DNA of 51,626 bases, from contig CAMDFP010000004.1 of assembly GCA_945897335.1 (NCBI GenBank), positions 1 to 51,626 on the forward strand. Reading direction: 5' to 3'. The stretch comes from Asaia bogorensis (GTDB taxonomy: Bacteria; Pseudomonadota; Alphaproteobacteria; SHVZ01). Made by a program: the position numbers and the translations under genes. A model generated the notes under the pieces. It was not told where the DNA came from and did not search any database. It saw only the letters and a list, made by a program, of their open reading frames with translations. Shown piece after piece: positions 1 through 8,474 of the stretch (positions are counted from its first letter, which is position 1; every line of letters begins with the position of its first letter).

Positions 1-647
1 GTGAAGCCTGCGAAGAGCGGACGGTCCAGCTCGCGCGACATGGCGACGGCGAAATGCTGGGCCAGCACCAGGATATCCTCGCGCCGAGCCCGGAGCGGCG
101 GCAGCGTCACCACCTCGAAGGCAAGGCGGTCGAGCAGGTCGGCGCGGAAGCGCCCGGCGGCGACTTCCGCCGGCAGATCGACGTTGGTCGCGCCGACGAC
201 GCGCACATCGACGCGCAGCGTGCGGCCACCGCCGACCCTTTCCATCTCGCCGTATTCGACCACGCGCAGGATCTTCTCCTGAACCCGGCTTGAAGCGGTC
301 GCGATCTCATCCAGCAGAAGCGTCCCGCCATCCGCCCGCTCGAAACGACCGATGCGGCGGTCACGGGCGCCGGTGAAGGCGCCGGCCTCATGGCCGAACA
401 ATTCCGAGTCCAGCAACTCCTCCGAAAGTGCCGCGCAGTTGACCGCGACGAAGGGCCGGTCCCAGCGCTTCGACAGGAAGTGAAGGCGGGCGGCGATCAG
501 CTCCTTGCCGGTGCCACGCTCGCCCACGACGAGACAGGGCCGCTCGAGCCGCGCCAGCCGGGACACCCGATCGAGAAGGTCCATGAACGCCGGGCTTTCG
601 CCCAGCGGCGTCTCTAGTTCGCGAATTTCGCCTCTCTGCATGGTCAT
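1..647 (-). CDS. pspF: PspF-like sigma-54-dependent activator (partial, 3' end outside window)
   Basis: AAA+ enhancer-binding protein that would open sigma-54 RNA polymerase complexes at the divergent psp promoter. About 215 residues are visible, beginning directly with the AAA+ domain and lacking an N-terminal sensory domain, as in PspF. Walker A (GERGTGKE, about residues 41-48), the sigma-54-contacting loop GAFTGA (encoded at 367-384) and Walker B (GGTLLLDE) are all present. The C-terminal part, including the Fis-type DNA-binding helix-turn-helix, lies beyond the left edge. Two in-frame ATGs (647 and 641) are possible starts and neither has a strong ribosome binding site. Divergence from pspA is the usual psp layout, in which PspA inhibits PspF. 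Confidence in the family is high; the symbol rests on context. Confidence 0.9.
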   Translation of the reverse strand, partial: MTMQRGEIRELETPLGESPAFMDLLDRVSRLARLERPCLVVGERGTGKELIAARLHFLSKRWDRPFVAVNCAALSEELLDSELFGHEAGAFTGARDRRIGRFERADGGTLLLDEIATASSRVQEKILRVVEYGEMERVGGGRTLRVDVRVVGATNVDLPAEVAAGRFRADLLDRLAFEVVTLPPLRARREDILVLAQHFAVAMSRELDRPLFAGF

Positions 648-717: not shown

Positions 718-732
718 TGGCACGGCCATTGC
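718..732 (+). promoter_or_regulatory. Sigma-54 (-24/-12) promoter of pspABC
   Basis: TGGCACGGCCATTGC matches the sigma-54 consensus TGGCACG-N4-TTGC exactly, with GG (719-720) and GC (731-732) separated by the obligatory 10 bp. Transcription would start around 744, about 43 bases before the pspA ATG. Together with the adjacent pspF this identifies a PspF/sigma-54-driven phage shock operon. Confidence 0.92.
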
Positions 733-786: not shown

Positions 787-1452
787 ATGAGTATCTTTTC
801 CCGTCTGACCGACATCGTGAACGCCAACCTGACCGCGCTGCTCGACCGGGCCGAAGACCCGGAGAAGATGGCGCGCCTGATGATCCAGGAGATGGAGGAC
901 ACGCTGGTCGAGGTGCGCTCGGCCGCGGTCAAGGCGATCGCCGACCGCAAGGAGCTGGGCCGCCGGGTGGCCGATGCCCGCTTCGGTCTCGAGGACTGGG
1001 AGCGGAAGGCCGAGCTCGCCGTCGCCAAAGGCAAGGAAGACCTCGCCCGTGCCGCCCTGTTCGAGAAGCGCCGCGCCGGCGACGTGCTCCGCGGCCTCGA
1101 AGCCGAGCTGGTGCAGGTCGACGAGGTCCTCGGCCGCTACGAGGACGATATCGGCCGGCTGCAGTCGAAGCTGGACGAAGCCAAGGCCAAGCGAAAGTCG
1201 CTGGAGATGCGTGCGGAAGCCGCCGGCCATTCGATCAAGGCCCGCAAGGTCCTGCACGATGCCCGCGTCGACGAGGCGCTGGCCCGCTACGACCGCATGC
1301 ACCGCCGGATCGACGAGTTGGAAGGCGAGGCCGAGGTCCTGGACAAGGGCCGGACGCCGGGTCTTTCCCAGCGCTTCGCCGAGCTGGAGAGCGAGGGCAA
1401 TGTCGAGGCTGAGCTCGAAGCGCTCCGCCGCAAGGTGAAATCCGGCTCGTAA
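787..1452 (+). CDS. pspA: Phage shock protein A (PspA/IM30 family)
   Basis: Peripheral inner-membrane protein of 221 residues that protects membrane integrity under envelope stress; when not membrane-engaged, PspA inhibits PspF. The N-terminus (MSIFSRLTDIVNANL) is the amphipathic membrane-binding helix, followed by the typical DRAEDPEKMARLMIQEMEDTL stretch and a long, highly charged coiled coil, as in ESCRT-III-like PspA proteins. Length is normal for the family. The ATG at 787 is preceded by GGGGAG at good spacing and lies about 43 bases downstream of the predicted sigma-54 transcription start. pspB follows after 19 bases. Confidence 0.95.
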   Translation: MSIFSRLTDIVNANLTALLDRAEDPEKMARLMIQEMEDTLVEVRSAAVKAIADRKELGRRVADARFGLEDWERKAELAVAKGKEDLARAALFEKRRAGDVLRGLEAELVQVDEVLGRYEDDIGRLQSKLDEAKAKRKSLEMRAEAAGHSIKARKVLHDARVDEALARYDRMHRRIDELEGEAEVLDKGRTPGLSQRFAELESEGNVEAELEALRRKVKSGS

Positions 1453-1471: not shown

Positions 1472-1705
1472 GTGTTCACATCCATGCTCTTCCTCGTGCC
1501 GGCGGTCGTCCTCCTCGGCATCGTCCTGCCGCTCTGGCTGGTGCTCCACTACGTGACCCTGTGGCGCCAGCAGAAGCGGTCGAACGGTGTCGACGACAAG
1601 ACCCTCGGCGACATCGAAACCATCGCGCGCCGTCTCGAAGACCGCATCGCCACGCTGGAACGCGTGCTCGATGCCGGCGACCCGGCGTGGAGGGACAAGG
1701 CATGA
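1472..1705 (+). CDS. pspB: Phage shock protein B
   Basis: Small inner-membrane protein of 77 residues from a GTG start; an in-frame ATG at 1484 is an alternative. Residues about 5-27 form one hydrophobic transmembrane segment (LVPAVVLLGIVLPLWLVLHY), followed by a short cytoplasmic coiled-coil region (DIETIARRLEDRIATLERVL), which matches PspB. With PspC it relieves PspA inhibition of PspF under membrane stress. The TGA stop overlaps the pspC ATG as ATGA, indicating translational coupling. Confidence 0.9.
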   Translation: MFTSMLFLVPAVVLLGIVLPLWLVLHYVTLWRQQKRSNGVDDKTLGDIETIARRLEDRIATLERVLDAGDPAWRDKA

Positions 1706-2187
1706 GCAAGTTCAAGCGCGAATGGCGCCGCCAGCAGCGCGAAGCCTGGCGCGAGCATCTTCGCCGCCACGGCATCGAACCGGACGCCGAGGACATGCCG
1801 CGCGACCGCTTCGGCCGTCGCGAGCGCGGCCCCTTCCGGCGCTATCCCGAACGCGGCATCGCTGGCGGCGTCATCGCCGGCCTCGCCCGCTGGCTCGGGT
1901 GGAGCACCTGGGCGGTCCGCGGTCCCGCGATCGCCCTCCTGGTAATCAACCCGCCGTTCTTCCTCGCCCTATATCTTACCCTGTGGGCGTTGATGGAGCG
2001 GGAAGCGGTGTTCGGCTGGATCCAGGGCCTGTTCCCGCGCCTGCCGGACGCGGTCCCGCAGTCCCGCGTCGACGACGTGCGCACGCGCCTTCGCGGCCTC
2101 GAGACCCGGGCTGCCCGGCTCGAGGAGCGCGTGACCTCCGAGGCCTTCGGCGTCAAAGGACGGTTCCGCCACCTCGACGGAACCTGA
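1702..2187 (+). CDS. pspC: Phage shock protein C (PspC domain)
   Basis: Inner-membrane stress sensor of 161 residues. An unusually basic N-terminal extension of about 45 residues, rich in Arg, precedes the PspC domain (GIAGGVIAGLARWLGWSTW, about residues 53-71), then a hydrophobic transmembrane helix (PAIALLVINPPFFLALYLTLWAL) and a C-terminal coiled coil (RTRLRGLETRAARLEERV). The ATG at 1702 is chosen because it overlaps the pspB stop and immediately precedes the recognisable basic region. With PspB it would transmit the membrane signal to PspA. Confidence 0.9.
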   Translation: MSKFKREWRRQQREAWREHLRRHGIEPDAEDMPRDRFGRRERGPFRRYPERGIAGGVIAGLARWLGWSTWAVRGPAIALLVINPPFFLALYLTLWALMEREAVFGWIQGLFPRLPDAVPQSRVDDVRTRLRGLETRAARLEERVTSEAFGVKGRFRHLDGT

Positions 2188-2217
2188 TCTCTTCCCAGGC
2201 GCGGCCTCGGGCGACTA

Positions 2218-2961
2218 ATGTCGCGCCCGATGCCGCGCCTTTCCCTGCTGATGCCGACCCTGCGCCCGGACTACGCGGAGAACGCGATCCGCCAGGTTCT
2301 GATGTGCAGCGGCCGGCACGACTATGAGCTGATCGTCGTCTCGCCCTTCGCGGTCGCAGGCGACCGCATCCGCCATGTGGCGGAGGAGACCCCGGAGGGC
2401 GACTCGGCCGCCTATGCCCGTGCGCTTGCCGTCGCCACCGGCGACATCGTGATGCCGATGATCGACGACTTCGCCCCGGCTTTCGGCTGGCTCGACGGCC
2501 TGGTCGAGGCGGTCGCCGCCGGCGAGGCAAGAGGCCTGCCGTTCTGCGGCAGCCTGCACTGGGTCAACCATCCCTGGTTCAACACCGCCTATGGCCGCTA
2601 CTACGCCTTCTTCCCGGTGATGAGCCGGCGCAGCCTCGCGCTCTCCGGCGGCTACATCGACACGGCGTTCCGCGCCAATTTCGGCGACGTCGATCTCTCG
2701 CTCCGGGTCTGGGACGCCGGCGGCCATTGCGCGCATCTGCCCAAGGCCGCGATCTACAAGGCGCGCGCCGAAGACGAGGCACGGCTTTCGCCCTACAAGC
2801 GCCACGGCGCCCAGGCTGATTTCGAGGCGCTGACCCGGCGCTGGCACCAGCGGCTCGGGCCGGAGCGTCCGCCGTCCTACGAAGGCGTCATCGGCACCCA
2901 CGATATCGCCAGCCTCGACGATCCGCGCTGGTTCGGGGGTCGCGCCGGCCATATCGGATGA
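2218..2961 (+). CDS. Glycosyltransferase family 2-like protein
   Basis: Protein of 247 residues with a GT-A-like layout. An N-terminal strand (LSLLMPTLRP) is followed by a DxD-like motif (MIDDFAP, about residues 80-86) and a later NFGDVDLSLRVWDAGG stretch that resembles the ED/GDxDL acceptor region of GT2 enzymes. The predicted reaction is sugar transfer from a nucleotide sugar; substrate unknown. No membrane segment is seen. The ATG at 2218 is used, and 2230 is an alternative. It begins 30 bases after pspC and its stop overlaps the start of the next glycosyltransferase gene by ATGA, so the two are probably co-translated. Confidence 0.7.
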   Translation: MSRPMPRLSLLMPTLRPDYAENAIRQVLMCSGRHDYELIVVSPFAVAGDRIRHVAEETPEGDSAAYARALAVATGDIVMPMIDDFAPAFGWLDGLVEAVAAGEARGLPFCGSLHWVNHPWFNTAYGRYYAFFPVMSRRSLALSGGYIDTAFRANFGDVDLSLRVWDAGGHCAHLPKAAIYKARAEDEARLSPYKRHGAQADFEALTRRWHQRLGPERPPSYEGVIGTHDIASLDDPRWFGGRAGHIG

Positions 2962-5021
2962 CCGGGCAACCGGGGCTCACGCTCGAAGCCGCCTTCGCTC
3001 TCGGCCTCGATCACCTGGAGGCCGGACGCGGCGAGACAGCGCTCCGGGTCTTCGGCGACATCCTGCAGGCGGTGCCCGGCCACCCCCAGGCAACCTATCT
3101 GCTCGGCGTAACGCTGCTTCAGGGCGGCCGCGCCGCCGACGCCTTGCCGCATCTCTCGGCCACGAGCCGGGCGGATCCGGCCAACTGGCGCATCGGACTC
3201 GCACTCGCCGGCGCGCTCGACGGCCTCGGCCGGCATCGCGAGTCGGCGACCGAGCTGCGGCGCGTCATCGCTGTCGCGCCGGACGCTGCCCAGGGCCTCG
3301 CTGCGCTCTCGGCCATCCTCGAACGTCTCGGTGAGCCGTCCCGGCGGGCGGCCACGATCGTCCGCCGCGCACTCGCGGCTGGGCTCGATCCTGGCGACCC
3401 GGCCGCCGCCTTCAACTTGGCGCGGACGCTGTTGGCCGGAGGCATCGCGCCGCCGGCAATGCGGCTGCTGCGCCGCGCCCTCAGCACCGCGCCGGCGATG
3501 CCGGAGCTGGTCAATGCGCTGGCCGCTGCCGACCTGGAAGCGCTCAGGATCTCCGCCGAGCGGACGGCGCGTCGCGCCGTGACGCTCGCGCCCGACCGCC
3601 CTGACTACCGCTACAACCTCGCCGGCTGCCTGGCGCTTCGCGGCGATACAGACGCCGCCGCCGGCCTATTCCGGCAGGTTTTGGCGCTCGCACCGGAACA
3701 TGTCGCCGCATTCAACAATCTCGGCTTGGTGCTCAGGGATCAGAGCCTCGTCGCGGCGGCGATCGATTGTCATCGCCACGCGCTGGCGGTCGAGCCGCGG
3801 AATCCCGATGTCCATCGCAACCTGCTGGCCGCCCTGCTCTATGCCTCCGAGGTCGACGAGGATCGCCGGTTTGCCTGGCACCGGGCATTCGGCCGCGCCG
3901 TCGCGCCGGCCATGCCGCCCTCGCCAACGACGACGGTACCCGGAGACCGGTTGACCATCGGCTATCTCTCCTCCGACCTTCGCGACCACCCGGTCGGCCG
4001 CTCGCTGGAGCCGGTGATCGCCGCGCATGATCGGGCCCGCATTCGCGTCGTGCTCTACCTGCAGCGCCATCGTCCCGACGACACCACCCGCCGCCTGGAG
4101 TCGATGGCGGATCTGGTCCACGATGTGAGCCAGCTCGACGACGCCGAGGCGGCCCGGCTGATCCGCGCCGACGGCGTCGACGTGCTGGTGATAGTCGCCG
4201 GCCGCTACGACCGCAACCGGCCCGGCGTCGCCGCTCATCGTGCCGCGCCCGTGCAGGTGAGCCTGCACGACCCCGCCACCAGCGGCATCGCGGAGATGGA
4301 CTTTCTCATCGCCGATCCCGACCTGGTGCCGCGCGCAAGTCCGGAACGCTTCGTCGAGCGGGTGATCCGCCTGCCGCGCTTCGTTGTCCAGTCGCCGCTG
4401 CCGGAGCATCCAATCGAGCGCTCCGCTGGGCGGCCACCGACCTTCGGCAGCTTCAACGCCCCGGCGAAGCTGTCGGAGCCGACGCTTGTGCTCTGGTCGC
4501 GGTTGCTCCGCCACGTGCCCGGCGCGCGGCTGATCCTCAAGAGCAAGAACCTGTTCGCCTCACGCGTGCTGGCCGAACGCGTCCTGCGCGTCTTCGAGGA
4601 TCACGGCGTCGCGGCCGATCGCATCGAGCTGCGCGCGGCAGTCGAGCCTCTCGACCAACACCTCGCCAACTATCGCGATGTCGACGTCGCCCTCGATCCC
4701 TTCCCGTTCAACGGCTCGACCACCAGCTTCGAAGCGCTGTGGATGGGCGTGCCGGTGGTGACTCTGCTGGGCGAACGAATGGCCGGACGCTGGAGCGCCT
4801 CAATGCTGCGTGCCCTCGACCTCGACGATCTGATCGCCGGAGACGAGACGCGCTATATCGAGATCGCATCGGCGCTGGCACAGGACCCGCCTCGCCTAGA
4901 TCGGCTGCGCACCGATCTCCGTCCGCGGCTCAAGGCTTCCTCGCTGATGGATGGTGGCGCGCGCACACGGCAGCTGGAGCGCGTCTACCGAGCGCTCTGG
5001 CGGAGATCACGAAAGTCCTGA
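2958..5021 (+). CDS. TPR protein with C-terminal O-GlcNAc transferase-like (GT41/SPINDLY) domain
   Basis: Predicted cytoplasmic glycosyltransferase of 687 residues. Residues about 1-300 are tetratricopeptide repeats (for example AFNNLGLVLRDQSLVAAAIDCHRHAL). Residues about 328-687 form the GT41 catalytic region: LSSDLRDHPVG (about 336-346) contains the conserved His, then FGSFNAPAKLS (about 495), LILKSKN (about 525) with the nucleotide-binding Lys, and LDPFPFNGSTTSFEALWMG (about 578-596). The usual GYPGTTG segment reads HDPATSG here. Family members transfer GlcNAc or another sugar to Ser/Thr of proteins; in bacteria flagellin or adhesin targets are known for some relatives. The target here is unknown, but a Ser/Thr-rich protein is encoded tail to tail just downstream. 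Confidence 0.85.
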   Translation: MTGQPGLTLEAAFALGLDHLEAGRGETALRVFGDILQAVPGHPQATYLLGVTLLQGGRAADALPHLSATSRADPANWRIGLALAGALDGLGRHRESATELRRVIAVAPDAAQGLAALSAILERLGEPSRRAATIVRRALAAGLDPGDPAAAFNLARTLLAGGIAPPAMRLLRRALSTAPAMPELVNALAAADLEALRISAERTARRAVTLAPDRPDYRYNLAGCLALRGDTDAAAGLFRQVLALAPEHVAAFNNLGLVLRDQSLVAAAIDCHRHALAVEPRNPDVHRNLLAALLYASEVDEDRRFAWHRAFGRAVAPAMPPSPTTTVPGDRLTIGYLSSDLRDHPVGRSLEPVIAAHDRARIRVVLYLQRHRPDDTTRRLESMADLVHDVSQLDDAEAARLIRADGVDVLVIVAGRYDRNRPGVAAHRAAPVQVSLHDPATSGIAEMDFLIADPDLVPRASPERFVERVIRLPRFVVQSPLPEHPIERSAGRPPTFGSFNAPAKLSEPTLVLWSRLLRHVPGARLILKSKNLFASRVLAERVLRVFEDHGVAADRIELRAAVEPLDQHLANYRDVDVALDPFPFNGSTTSFEALWMGVPVVTLLGERMAGRWSASMLRALDLDDLIAGDETRYIEIASALAQDPPRLDRLRTDLRPRLKASSLMDGGARTRQLERVYRALWRRSRKS

Positions 5022-5055
5022 GCGTCGACATGACGCAGTCCCATCGCCTCGGGCT

Positions 5056-5080
5056 CCCTCCCCCGCTGCGCGGGAGAGGG
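5056..5080. terminator. Bidirectional hairpin between convergent genes
   Basis: The arms CCCTCCCCCGC and GCGGGAGAGGG form an 11-bp stem with one mismatch and a 3-base loop. It lies between the stops of the GT41 gene (5021) and the convergent Ser/Thr-rich gene (5106). There is no long T-tract on either side. It resembles GC-rich palindromic intergenic repeats common in alphaproteobacteria; a terminator role is inferred from position. Confidence 0.5.
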
Positions 5081-5105
5081 TTCCGAAAGCGATTGTTCGT
5101 GGAGT

Positions 5106-6500
5106 CTAGCTCGCGAGATCGACGATCGCGCCCGGCTGCGACGCGGCCGGCGGTGCAGGAGGCGCGACGAAGGCGGAACTCGGCGAGTCTCCACCCGTGC
5201 GCTCGACGACGAGAGGCGGGCGGAGGCGAATTTCCTCGGGACGGCTGCGCTCGCTCGTCCGCTCGGTGCGGGACTGCCGCTCCGTCCGGCTCTCTTCTTC
5301 GTCCTCGCGGACGGTCGGCCGGCGCTCCTGCTCGTCCCGGCGGCCGCGGATCTCGTCGAGATTGGCGGCGGGGTTCGGTACCGGCTGCGGCGGCGTCGCC
5401 AGCTCCTGAAGTGGCGCCAGCAGTTGCGTGCTGCTCGAATAGGCGGCGACCTGACGGCGAACCTCGGCCCGCACCTCGGTCGGGCTCTGCGGCGTCTCCA
5501 CCGTCGCGGTCGAACTCGACGTCACCGTCGAGGTGGTGCCGGGTATCGTCGTGGTGATCGTCTCGCTGCTGGCGGGGATCACCTCGGTCACTTCGCGCGT
5601 CACCTCCTGGGTGACGGTCGGCCTCACGCGGTCGATCGTCTCCTGAAGAGCCGCGATCGCCTCAGGCCCGGCCCTGACCAGGAGATCCTCGAGCTTCCGC
5701 GAGACGTTGTCGCCGGTCGCCGCCAGGACCTTGCCGAGCGTCTGGACGACGCGGGCGCCATTCTCTTCCAACAGATCCTCGAAGGCGCTGACGCCGCGCT
5801 CGCCGCCGCGATCGAACAGGCGGTCGATGGAGCGGGTCAAGTCGCGGCCACGGTTGTCGAGGGCACGTTCCACCCGACGCTCGAGCCGGCTGCCACCACG
5901 GTCGACCGCGCGATCCAGCTCGTCCAGAAGCCGGTCGCCACGGCGCTCGACGCTGTCGGCGAGACGCGCGACACGGCGGTCCGCGGAGCGGCCGTTGCCG
6001 CGATCCTCGATCTCTCCGGCACGGCCCGAGGCGCGGTCGAGGATCGAGCGCAGCTCCTGGACACCGGCGCTCTCCGGGCCGGGGACCGTAACCGTCTCGG
6101 TCACCGTGCGCGTGACCGTCCGCTCGGGCGTCTCGATCGTAGTCGTCGTCGTCTGGTCCGGCGTGGTGACCGTACTGGTCCGCTCGCGCGTGACCGAGGC
6201 CAGCACCCGCTGCAGCTCCCGCGCGGGCGCCTCGGCGGCCTCTTCGGCGACGCTCTGCTCGCGGATGGCGAATTGCTGCGAAGACTGCTGGAGCGCCCCC
6301 AGCGTCTGCGCCGAGATCGGCGACGGCGGCACCTGGATCAGCGCCGACGTGCGGCTGCCGAAGCTCTGCGACTGAGTGAGCGCGGCCGAGACCAGCTGGG
6401 CGTTGGGCTGCGCCCTCGCCTCGGCGGACAAAGCGGGGGTGGGCACGAGCACCGTCGGCGGCGCCGCTCGCGCGTTTGCGCTCCCGAAGAGCGCCACCAC
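5106..6500 (-). CDS. Ser/Thr-rich, charged, probably exported protein of unknown function
   Basis: Not recognised. About 464 residues of strongly biased composition. A short hydrophobic N-terminus ending in ANARAA suggests a clipped signal peptide, with cleavage near ARA/APP. The order is: a Gln/Ser-rich region; a Thr-rich linker (TVTTPDQTTTTTIETPE); a central block of roughly 150 residues of Arg/Asp/Glu-rich amphipathic helices (RLLDELDRAVDRGG and similar); a second Ser/Thr linker (TTTIPGTTSTVTSSSTATV); and an Arg/Glu-rich, Pro-rich tail. The GTG at 6500 is chosen for the AGGA six bases upstream; a TTG at 6506 would lengthen the hydrophobic segment and an in-frame stop lies a little further upstream. 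The opposite strand is also open but reads as low-complexity Arg-rich shadow. Tail-to-tail placement with a GT41 enzyme suggests it may be glycosylated (inference). Confidence 0.6.
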   Translation of the reverse strand: MVALFGSANARAAPPTVLVPTPALSAEARAQPNAQLVSAALTQSQSFGSRTSALIQVPPSPISAQTLGALQQSSQQFAIREQSVAEEAAEAPARELQRVLASVTRERTSTVTTPDQTTTTTIETPERTVTRTVTETVTVPGPESAGVQELRSILDRASGRAGEIEDRGNGRSADRRVARLADSVERRGDRLLDELDRAVDRGGSRLERRVERALDNRGRDLTRSIDRLFDRGGERGVSAFEDLLEENGARVVQTLGKVLAATGDNVSRKLEDLLVRAGPEAIAALQETIDRVRPTVTQEVTREVTEVIPASSETITTTIPGTTSTVTSSSTATVETPQSPTEVRAEVRRQVAAYSSSTQLLAPLQELATPPQPVPNPAANLDEIRGRRDEQERRPTVREDEEESRTERQSRTERTSERSRPEEIRLRPPLVVERTGGDSPSSAFVAPPAPPAASQPGAIVDLAS

Positions 6501-6559
6501 GTTCAATCCTGTCAGACCTACCCCATCCCGTTTAGGGTACGCCTAACCGGGCCTTTACC

Positions 6560-7708
6560 TCAATGCTTACCGGCCACGACGCGGTCGAAAACGTCAAAGA
6601 ACCGGTCGACCTCATTAAGGTTGTTGAAGACGTGGGGACTCATCCGCAAGGACGTGCCGCGGACGGAGACGAAGCACTTCTCCTTGTTCAGCCGATCGCC
6701 GAGGCCAACCGGTACCTCGCCGCCCGAAAACTGCAATCCGATGAAGTGCTTGACCCGATGCTCCTCGGGCGGGACGGCGAGCTGGCGGGCCGCCGCATGC
6801 TCGGCGATACGCTTGGTCAGGGGTGCGATGGTCGCTTCGATTTCGTCCTGGCCCCAAGCCAGCAGTTGCTCCATCCCGACATTGGCGATCGGCAGGTGGA
6901 TGAACTGGCTCCGCTCGCCCATGTCGTAGCGCCGGGCGCCGGGTGCGTATTCGTCGCCGAAGGTCCGCTGGCCGGGCGAGTTCTGGCTGCCGGCCCGGCC
7001 GTAATTGTGCTGCTCGAGCGGCCGTCCGTCCTGACGATGCGGGGCGACGTAAAGGAAGCCGAGCCCGTAGGGCCCGAGCAGCCACTTGTAGGCCGAGCAC
7101 ATCAGGTAGTCGGGCTTCAGCTTCTTGACGTCGATCGGCTTGGCGCCCAGCGACTGGGTGACATCGGTGATGAACACCGCGCCGACCTGGTGCGCGCGGT
7201 CGCTCACCTGCTGCAGGTCGATCAGGCCGCCGTCGGTCCAGTAGCAGTTGGGGACGCCGACCCAGGCCGTCTTCTCGTCGATGGCGGCGAGGATCGCCTT
7301 GGTCCAGTCGCCGTCCTTCGGCTTCGACACCAGCTTGAGGATGGCACCCGCTTCGGCGCAACGGCGCTTGTATTCGAGCAGCGTCGAGTAGTGCTCGCCT
7401 TCGAGGCCGACCACCGACTGCCCGGCCTTGAGGCCGAGGTTCTGCGACGCCGTCGCCACGCCGTAGGAGGTGGCGGCGACCACGGCGATATCCTCGGCGC
7501 TGGCATTGATCAGGCGGGCGAAGAGGACGCGGGCGCGCTCGACGTCGTCGTAGAAATGCTTCCACTCGATGGTCCAGGGATGGACCTTGCGGTCGATCGC
7601 CCAATGCCCCATCTCGCGCTGTGCCTTCAGGTTGGGCGAGAGATAGGCGCAGTTGAAGTAGACGACATCCTCGGGGATGTCGAAGAGGGCGCGCTGGTCG
7701 GGGAGCAT
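6560..7708 (-). CDS. Class V aminotransferase / cysteine desulfurase-like PLP enzyme
   Basis: PLP-dependent enzyme of 382 residues. The predicted Schiff-base Lys is K208 (SAYKWLLGPYGLGFLYV), preceded by the cofactor-contacting Asp about residue 182 (ITDVTQS). The fold signature (VYFNCAYLSPNLKAQ at the N-terminus, ATSYGVATASQNLGL, GLEGEHYSTL) fits the broad class V group that includes kynureninase, isopenicillin-N epimerase-like and SufS-like proteins; I cannot assign the substrate. Start ATG 7708 is used because homologous sequence begins there, although its ribosome binding site is weak. A perfect TTTCCGAACGGAAA palindrome lies 70 bp upstream. Confidence 0.8.
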   Translation of the reverse strand: MLPDQRALFDIPEDVVYFNCAYLSPNLKAQREMGHWAIDRKVHPWTIEWKHFYDDVERARVLFARLINASAEDIAVVAATSYGVATASQNLGLKAGQSVVGLEGEHYSTLLEYKRRCAEAGAILKLVSKPKDGDWTKAILAAIDEKTAWVGVPNCYWTDGGLIDLQQVSDRAHQVGAVFITDVTQSLGAKPIDVKKLKPDYLMCSAYKWLLGPYGLGFLYVAPHRQDGRPLEQHNYGRAGSQNSPGQRTFGDEYAPGARRYDMGERSQFIHLPIANVGMEQLLAWGQDEIEATIAPLTKRIAEHAAARQLAVPPEEHRVKHFIGLQFSGGEVPVGLGDRLNKEKCFVSVRGTSLRMSPHVFNNLNEVDRFFDVFDRVVAGKH

Positions 7709-7793: not shown

Positions 7794-8474
7794 CTAGAAT
7801 TTTTCGACCGACGGCCGGAGATCGACCTCCTGCGCCCAGGCGCTCTTCGGCTGGGCATGAAGATGGAGATATGTGGCCGCGATGGCGTCGGGATCGAGCT
7901 TCCCGGCCTCATCGGCGCCGGCCCGGCCGATGCCGCCGTCGATGATCACATGCGCCACGTGCAGGCCCTTCGGCCCGAGCTCCCGCGCCAGGCTCTGCGC
8001 CAGGCCGCGCAGAGCGAACTTGCCCATGGCGAAAGGCGCCGACTCTGCATAGCCCTTCACGCTGGCGCTGGCGCCGGTGAACAGCAGGCTGCCGCGCCCG
8101 GCCGGCAGCATCAGGCGGACCGCGGCCTGCGCCACCAGGAAGCCTCCATAGGCAGAGATGTCGAGGGCCTGACGCACCGCCTCGCGGTCGAGCTCGGCGA
8201 CCGGGCCGCGTGCCCGCCGGCTGGCGTTGTAGACGACGAAGGACGGCGTGCCGAGCTCGCGGCAGACGCGTTCGAACAATGCATCCACCGAGGCACCGTC
8301 GGTCGCATCGCAGGCGATGGCCGTGGCACCGGTCGAGCGCGCGACCTCGGCGATCTTCTCCTTATCGCGGGATGCCACCGCGACCTTCATGCCGGTGGCC
8401 GCAGCCGCACGGGCCAGGGCCGCACCCAGGCCCGCGCCCGCCCCGACGATCACCGCAACGCCTGCATCCGCCAT
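7794..8474 (-). CDS. Atypical short-chain dehydrogenase/reductase lacking the catalytic Tyr
   Basis: Rossmann-fold protein of 226 residues with the nucleotide-binding GAGAGLG (residues 11-17), a NAS motif in the NNAG position (84-86) and the expected helix with Lys152. The canonical YxxxK reads FAMGK: the catalytic Tyr is Phe148 (codon TTC, complement of 8031-8033). The upstream Ser residues (136/138) remain. The usual proton donor is therefore missing, and the protein may bind cofactor or substrate only, or use a nearby Tyr (Y142). The ATG at 8474 has GGGGAG at good spacing. It follows the GST gene by 27 bases on the same strand and probably shares its transcript. Confidence 0.8.
   Translation of the reverse strand: MADAGVAVIVGAGAGLGAALARAAAATGMKVAVASRDKEKIAEVARSTGATAIACDATDGASVDALFERVCRELGTPSFVVYNASRRARGPVAELDREAVRQALDISAYGGFLVAQAAVRLMLPAGRGSLLFTGASASVKGYAESAPFAMGKFALRGLAQSLARELGPKGLHVAHVIIDGGIGRAGADEAGKLDPDAIAATYLHLHAQPKSAWAQEVDLRPSVEKF

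Follow-up and report, generated by a model that had tools for sequence, protein, structure and literature searches.

Behind the phage-shock genes pspABC of an uncultured lake bacterium lie a GT2-like gene and a gene for an O-GlcNAc-transferase-like enzyme of family GT41, the latter tail to tail with a gene for a Ser/Thr-rich protein (STR). This arrangement raises the question whether the enzyme belongs functionally to the stress genes in front of it, to the protein behind it or to neither. The locus is part of a window of 51,626 nucleotides (the whole stretch of DNA analyzed), which makes up contig C4 in an assembly of 5.0 Mb and 442 contigs (G000). A sequence-only reading of the window had taken STR as a candidate acceptor of the enzyme and had suggested a link to envelope stress. 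On balance we lean to the view that GT2 and GT41, as the final genes of a psp operon controlled by PspF and sigma-54, form a membrane-stress-induced pair for protein O-glycosylation, for which STR is not a required partner.

The coordinates of all features are given in Table 1. The gene pspF on the minus strand is divergent from pspA-pspB-pspC-GT2-GT41 on the plus strand, which is followed by STR, an aminotransferase gene and a short-chain dehydrogenase (SDR) gene, all on the minus strand. The features of a psp operon present are pspF, pspA, pspB, pspC and a sigma-54 promoter. The model for PspF scored 367 bits over residues 15-215 of the partial protein, which is below the cut-off set for the full-length protein. 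The sigma-54 site ends 54 bp before the pspA start and was found at the same place in all five genomes that have this locus, with 9-10 of 10 positions matching; of the two perfect matches that the window contains, both strands counted, the second one lies inside a gene. An overlap of 4 nt joins pspB to pspC, and GT2 to GT41 in all four genomes with the pair (the window and three others). pspC, GT2 and GT41 are on one strand, and the gap between pspC and GT2 is 42 nt in the window and 43-46 nt in the three relatives when counted to an ATG that is conserved in all four, or 30 nt when counted to the window ATG at 2218. At the level of the sequence, gene order, promoter and overlaps make GT2 and GT41 the probable final genes of the pspF/sigma-54 operon, and both may be co-transcribed with the psp genes, although a stable hairpin lies in the gap. 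It was correct that the cluster follows pspABC, with pspF divergent, and the proposed link to envelope stress was strengthened, in that GT2 and GT41 probably close this operon.

Table 1. Features of the psp-GT2-GT41-STR locus in the window.
Feature	Position	Strand	Basis or remark
pspF, cut by window edge	3..647	-	divergent sigma-54 enhancer-binding activator; TIGR02974 phageshock_pspF
sigma-54 promoter TGGCAC-N5-TTGC, upstream of pspA	718..732	+	10/10 consensus positions
pspA	787..1452	+	PF04012 135.5 bits
pspB	1484..1705	+	TIGR02976 62.2 bits, cut-off 51.7
pspC	1702..2187	+	PF04024 39.9 bits, cut-off 25
stable RNA hairpin, pspC-GT2	2197..2240	+	predicted; relatives' conserved GT2 ATG (2230) in 3' arm
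GT2-like glycosyltransferase	2218..2961	+	PF00535; possible start at 2230, the one used in relatives
TPR-GT41 (OGT-like) glycosyltransferase, 687 aa	2958..5021	+	PF13844
STR (466 aa, rich in Ser/Thr; start codon TTG)	5106..6506	-	orthologues, dN/dS, model
class V aminotransferase, cysteine desulfurase-like, upstream of STR	6560..7708	-	PF00266 93 bits
short-chain dehydrogenase (SDR), STR strand	7794..8474	-	PF00106 111.9 bits

The description of GT41 as a TPR protein with the conserved His and Lys was confirmed. PF13844 scored 142.4 bits (cut-off 25), several TPR models were over their cut-offs, and in the structural model helical repeats span residues 9-294. Among solved structures, the TPR protein 5djs, SPINDLY, XcOGT and human OGT are closest to it, and the catalytic part aligns over its length with PDB entry 5djs (1.6e-76), SPINDLY (4.7e-53) and XcOGT (1.4e-35). 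H344 aligns with the conserved His of all three, and K504 with the Lys of SPINDLY and XcOGT, whereas 5djs has a Met there. Both residues are invariant in all four orthologues, and their roles presumably correspond to those of H498 and K842 of human OGT, as catalytic-site His and nucleotide-binding Lys. The preceding ORF was also rightly called GT2-like, with the reservation that Glycos_transf_2 (PF00535) scored 23.1 bits, just below the cut-off of 23.3. The GT2 orthologues of the three relatives share 82-84% identity and are always accompanied by GT41, for which the identity is 68-72%; dN/dS is 0.13-0.24 for GT2 and 0.21-0.28 for GT41. We infer that the pair is enzymatically active, with proteins as the probable acceptor class. 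That the two enzymes instead build or modify a lipid- or polysaccharide-linked envelope glycan after damage, with no protein acceptor, would agree with the psp context (membrane stress), with the GT2 partner gene and with a nucleotide pocket that is only partly OGT-like, as for S587, which we take to be the position of His920 in human OGT. The solved GT41 relatives, however, are OGT and SPINDLY, the enzyme has predicted TPR helices, and the characterized GT41 enzymes known to us act on proteins, so that we regard a glycan acceptor as very unlikely.

Within the genus set of six genomes, G000 included, GT2 and GT41 co-vary, as both are present in four genomes and neither in two. The GT2-GT41 cassette occurs together with STR in four of the six, STR alone in one (G002) and the cassette alone in none; G004 (82% complete) lacks cassette, STR and pspA. 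Of the five genomes that have the psp locus, one is without the pair, which is therefore dispensable. Outside the genus, 40 psp loci of other genera of Alphaproteobacteria were searched with a profile made from the catalytic part of GT41, and none had a GT41 within about 8 kb. These loci, some of them short (4.8-13 kb), come from 38 genomes among 385 genomes of the class, and the 53 PspA matches obtained also included four from within the genus and nine of low significance (E 1.6e-11 to 8.5e-4), which were left out. The pair is therefore a genus-level addition to the psp locus. A literature search of open-licence PMC papers with psp or GT41 terms returned no such operon or expansion, and the words "glycosyl" and "GT41" are absent from the main text of two surveys of the PSP system (PMC11237479, PMC9239133). 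GT41 enzymes and psp operons are each of a known kind, their combination in one putative operon is new as far as these papers show, and the pair is known from one genus of uncultured Alphaproteobacteria.

The junction of pspC and GT2 is predicted to fold into a stable RNA hairpin (-35.4 kcal/mol, z -6.3). Similar hairpins lie over the GT2 start in all four cassette genomes (G003, -32.7, z -2.8; G001, -36.1, z -5.7; G005, -40.9, z -5.4), whereas the pspC end of G002, which has no pair, shows no such hairpin (z -0.5). Stable folds are common at a GC content of about 68%, though the hairpin of the window ranks second among 264 gene starts of its own genome's loci (60-nt windows), and those of the relatives rank first to third among 70 gene starts on their psp contigs. 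The additional window ATG at 2218 is at the loop end of the stem. All bases of the GT2 ATG are paired only in G005, with one or two in a mismatch elsewhere, and the 18 nt in front of this ATG have no Shine-Dalgarno-like core. The hairpin is not proved by covariation, since the RNAalifold consensus on an automatic alignment gave a positive, unfavourable covariation term and only one of 19 pairs was changed on both sides. A terminator scan did not list it as an intrinsic terminator, and no other full copy was present among the loci searched, which speaks against a dispersed repeat. As the start codon would be locked in the hairpin without a Shine-Dalgarno sequence, translation of GT2 may depend on ribosomes that finish pspC, and the hairpin would then be a gate. 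It could equally hinder transcription, bind a protein or lower GT2-GT41 output.

The Ser/Thr-rich neighbour on the minus strand was found in four of the five other genomes of the genus and in none of 54 genomes outside it (set of 60, own genome included). A first scan of genome contigs gave no match, and an alignment scan then yielded four named MAGs of Alphaproteobacteria/Rhodospirillaceae, Baikal-deep-G52, K_Offshore_80m (two) and MAG-110. dN/dS is 0.39-0.46 and divergence peaks at third codon positions, and an antisense ORF (5424-6929) was rejected for its wrong divergence pattern. Judged by its sequence conservation, the minus-strand ORF is a real gene. It lies 84 bp from GT41, tail to tail as described before, and the stop codons of both genes overlap in the three other genomes with the pair. 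Three STR orthologues start with TTG and the other two with CTG or an uncertain codon, and all five have an in-frame stop 10-16 codons upstream. The DNA just upstream of the start (6507-6542, minus strand) is conserved, and a two-codon frame, ATGGGRTAG, precedes STR in four of the five orthologues.

Two attributes given to STR by the sequence-only reading did not hold. It had been called secreted-looking, but with its non-ATG start none of the five orthologues has a hydrophobic stretch that could serve as signal or membrane helix (best 19-residue mean at most 1.29), and the best 11-mer within the first 45 residues reaches 1.29-2.01 vs 3.00 for a protein of the window with a signal-like start; the comparison is of hydropathy only, and the 11-mer values depend on the uncertain start codon. 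A flagellar or secreted protein was also discarded, as no Pfam family was over its cut-off. The two Ser/Thr stretches had been read as linkers, but most of each is modeled as a beta-hairpin. The model (mean pLDDT 64, pTM 0.40) begins with helices, which are followed by a beta-hairpin at residues 118-142, a bundle of helices at 147-294, another beta-hairpin at 297-321 and a charged tail without order. Both hairpins are Thr-rich and, with pLDDT 84-89, comprise the larger part of the Ser/Thr stretches. STR has no PDB sequence relative of weight and no Foldseek match with E <=0.001 in PDB or BFVD. The window protein matched no PHROG, and weak matches were obtained for one other member each. In the VIA rows (best Z 7.8) the matched part of STR is mostly the helical bundle, so that no fold is claimed. 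In 385 genomes, the only addition by the STR profile was a C-terminal partial match in G375, a 215-aa protein that has the C-terminal motif in common. This protein (L057:1489-2136, minus strand) is from another alphaproteobacterial genus, lacks the Thr-rich hairpins and shares the motif PLQELATPPxPVPNPAA with the STR tail (window:5106-5483, minus strand). Used as query in the class, it retrieved one same-genus homolog, the STR proteins again and otherwise weak matches.

Is STR then a dedicated acceptor, decorated by GT41 on its Thr-rich stretches? Among 240 non-GT41 ORFs from the window and the fetched loci of its own genome, STR is the one densest in Ser/Thr (20 of 40 residues). STR adjoins the cassette in all four cassette genomes, and other GT41 arrays of the genus adjoin flagellins, which are a known type of acceptor. 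In a genome with about 46 GT41 genes, however, a place next to one of them counts for little. STR is on a separate convergent strand, which it shares with the SDR and the aminotransferase genes and not with psp (aminotransferase orthologues adjoin STR in all four relatives that have it), and the overlap of the stops is found in three of the four genomes. Furthermore, most of its Thr-rich part is modeled as beta-hairpin, and its Ser/Thr columns are kept as Ser or Thr in all five orthologues in 10 of 18 and 11 of 20 cases, no better than the other residues, which are invariant in 10 of 20 and 11 of 24. The genome G002 lacks the pair and has kept STR with its Ser/Thr residues. In this genome (L015/L050; a MAG, 88% complete) the ends of pspC and STR are 6 bp apart on one contig with nothing between them, the best GT41 match anywhere is 44% identical, and no GT2 match was found. 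An aminotransferase tree rooted on G006 groups G002 with G001 and G005 (94/95; the latter two alone 86/88), inside G000 and G003, and an unrooted three-gene DNA tree separates G000 and G003 from the rest (100/99). As G002 is nested among cassette bearers, the pair was most likely lost while STR stayed. The two STR stretches of G002 are no less dense in Ser/Thr than those of the other orthologues: the first has 20 of 38 residues (elsewhere 12-19 of 38-40) and the second 17 of 44 (elsewhere 16-22 of 44-46). Loss of the pair with retention of STR argues against an obligate enzyme-substrate pair, and on this result the acceptor role was demoted from the main reading to an unlikely one. Another of the many GT41 enzymes could replace the lost one in G002.

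The own genome has 91 PF13844 fragment matches, and gene calls in the fetched loci give 46 GT41 genes, some of them cut by contig ends; the His and the Lys are each kept in 42 of the 46, with cut genes lacking the site counted as misses. In a first look at the 385 genomes, with scoring limited to three candidates for each, the own genome (94) and G005 (93) had the most GT41 candidates, with 55 as the top value outside the family. When more candidates were scored, six relatives had 31-77 matches, where the counts for G002-G005 are lower bounds (60 candidates scored), and four other genomes had 32-53. GT41-rich loci of the own genome include L018-L028. Tandem GT41 arrays lie beside or between flagellin genes, as in L020:1457-9922 (G000 C124), and flank flagellins in at least four of seven genomes searched (G000 C124, G002 C195, G004 C59, G005 C42), which suggests an expanded flagellin glycosylation system. 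A 778-aa protein with DUF1217 and part of Flagellin_N is encoded between two GT41 genes (L028:3009-5345, plus strand), and a stretch of G006 C54 (L046-L048) has about 13 GT41 genes in 50 kb as well as FlgE- and FliK-like and sugar-nucleotide genes (GHMP kinase and others). The psp-linked enzyme might accordingly be a glycosyltransferase for flagellin or another surface protein that stands behind pspC by chance, as these arrays and the flagellin-binding TPR + GT-B enzyme FlmG (PMC7591256) would allow. In the GT41 tree, however, the psp orthologues group with one another (SH-aLRT 100) and away from the copies in flagellin arrays, no flagellin was matched on contig C4, and place, overlap and hairpin of the psp-linked gene are conserved in four genomes. 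We consider this reading quite unlikely.

For the preferred reading, a pair induced by membrane stress, the following course can be envisaged. Membrane stress would free PspF, and the psp operon would be transcribed. The ATGA overlap may couple translation of GT41 to that of GT2. With its TPR superhelix, GT41 would pick a cytoplasmic protein, to which the GT-B part may add a sugar at Ser/Thr, and GT2 probably extends this sugar. STR would belong to a separate convergent set, SDR-aminotransferase-STR. The fuller version, in which PspF and sigma-54 induce the OGT-like enzyme, the hairpin ties its synthesis to PspC translation and O-glycosylation of a cytoplasmic or membrane protein is an output of the Psp response, is a tentative proposal, about which we have more doubt than confidence. 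If true, an OGT-like enzyme in a psp operon would link membrane damage to protein glycosylation. In animals a link of this sort is provided by OGT, a stress and nutrient sensor, and the Psp effectors known to us so far act on the membrane itself. Moreover, the genus, in which a single genome of 5 Mb has some 46 GT41 genes, is a natural library for studying how TPRs choose acceptors.

Compared with OGT and SPINDLY (CAZy GT41), the window enzyme has the TPR N-terminus, the PF13844 catalytic part and the active-site His and Lys in common, but unlike them it probably belongs, with a GT2-like gene, to a psp operon and is one of about 46 paralogues in one genome. FlmG of Caulobacter crescentus, whose TPRs bind flagellin, is the nearest functional precedent. 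It is likewise a soluble TPR + GT-B enzyme of an alphaproteobacterium (PMC7591256), and the paralogues of the genus adjoin flagellins, whereas the window enzyme is away from flagellin and tied to psp; C. vibrioides matches PF13844 at the level of the organism. With pspFABC of Proteobacteria, as described in the two surveys (PMC11237479, PMC9239133), the window operon shares the divergent pspF, the sigma-54 site and the order pspA-pspB-pspC, and it differs from the arrangement given there by its probable GT2-GT41 extension.
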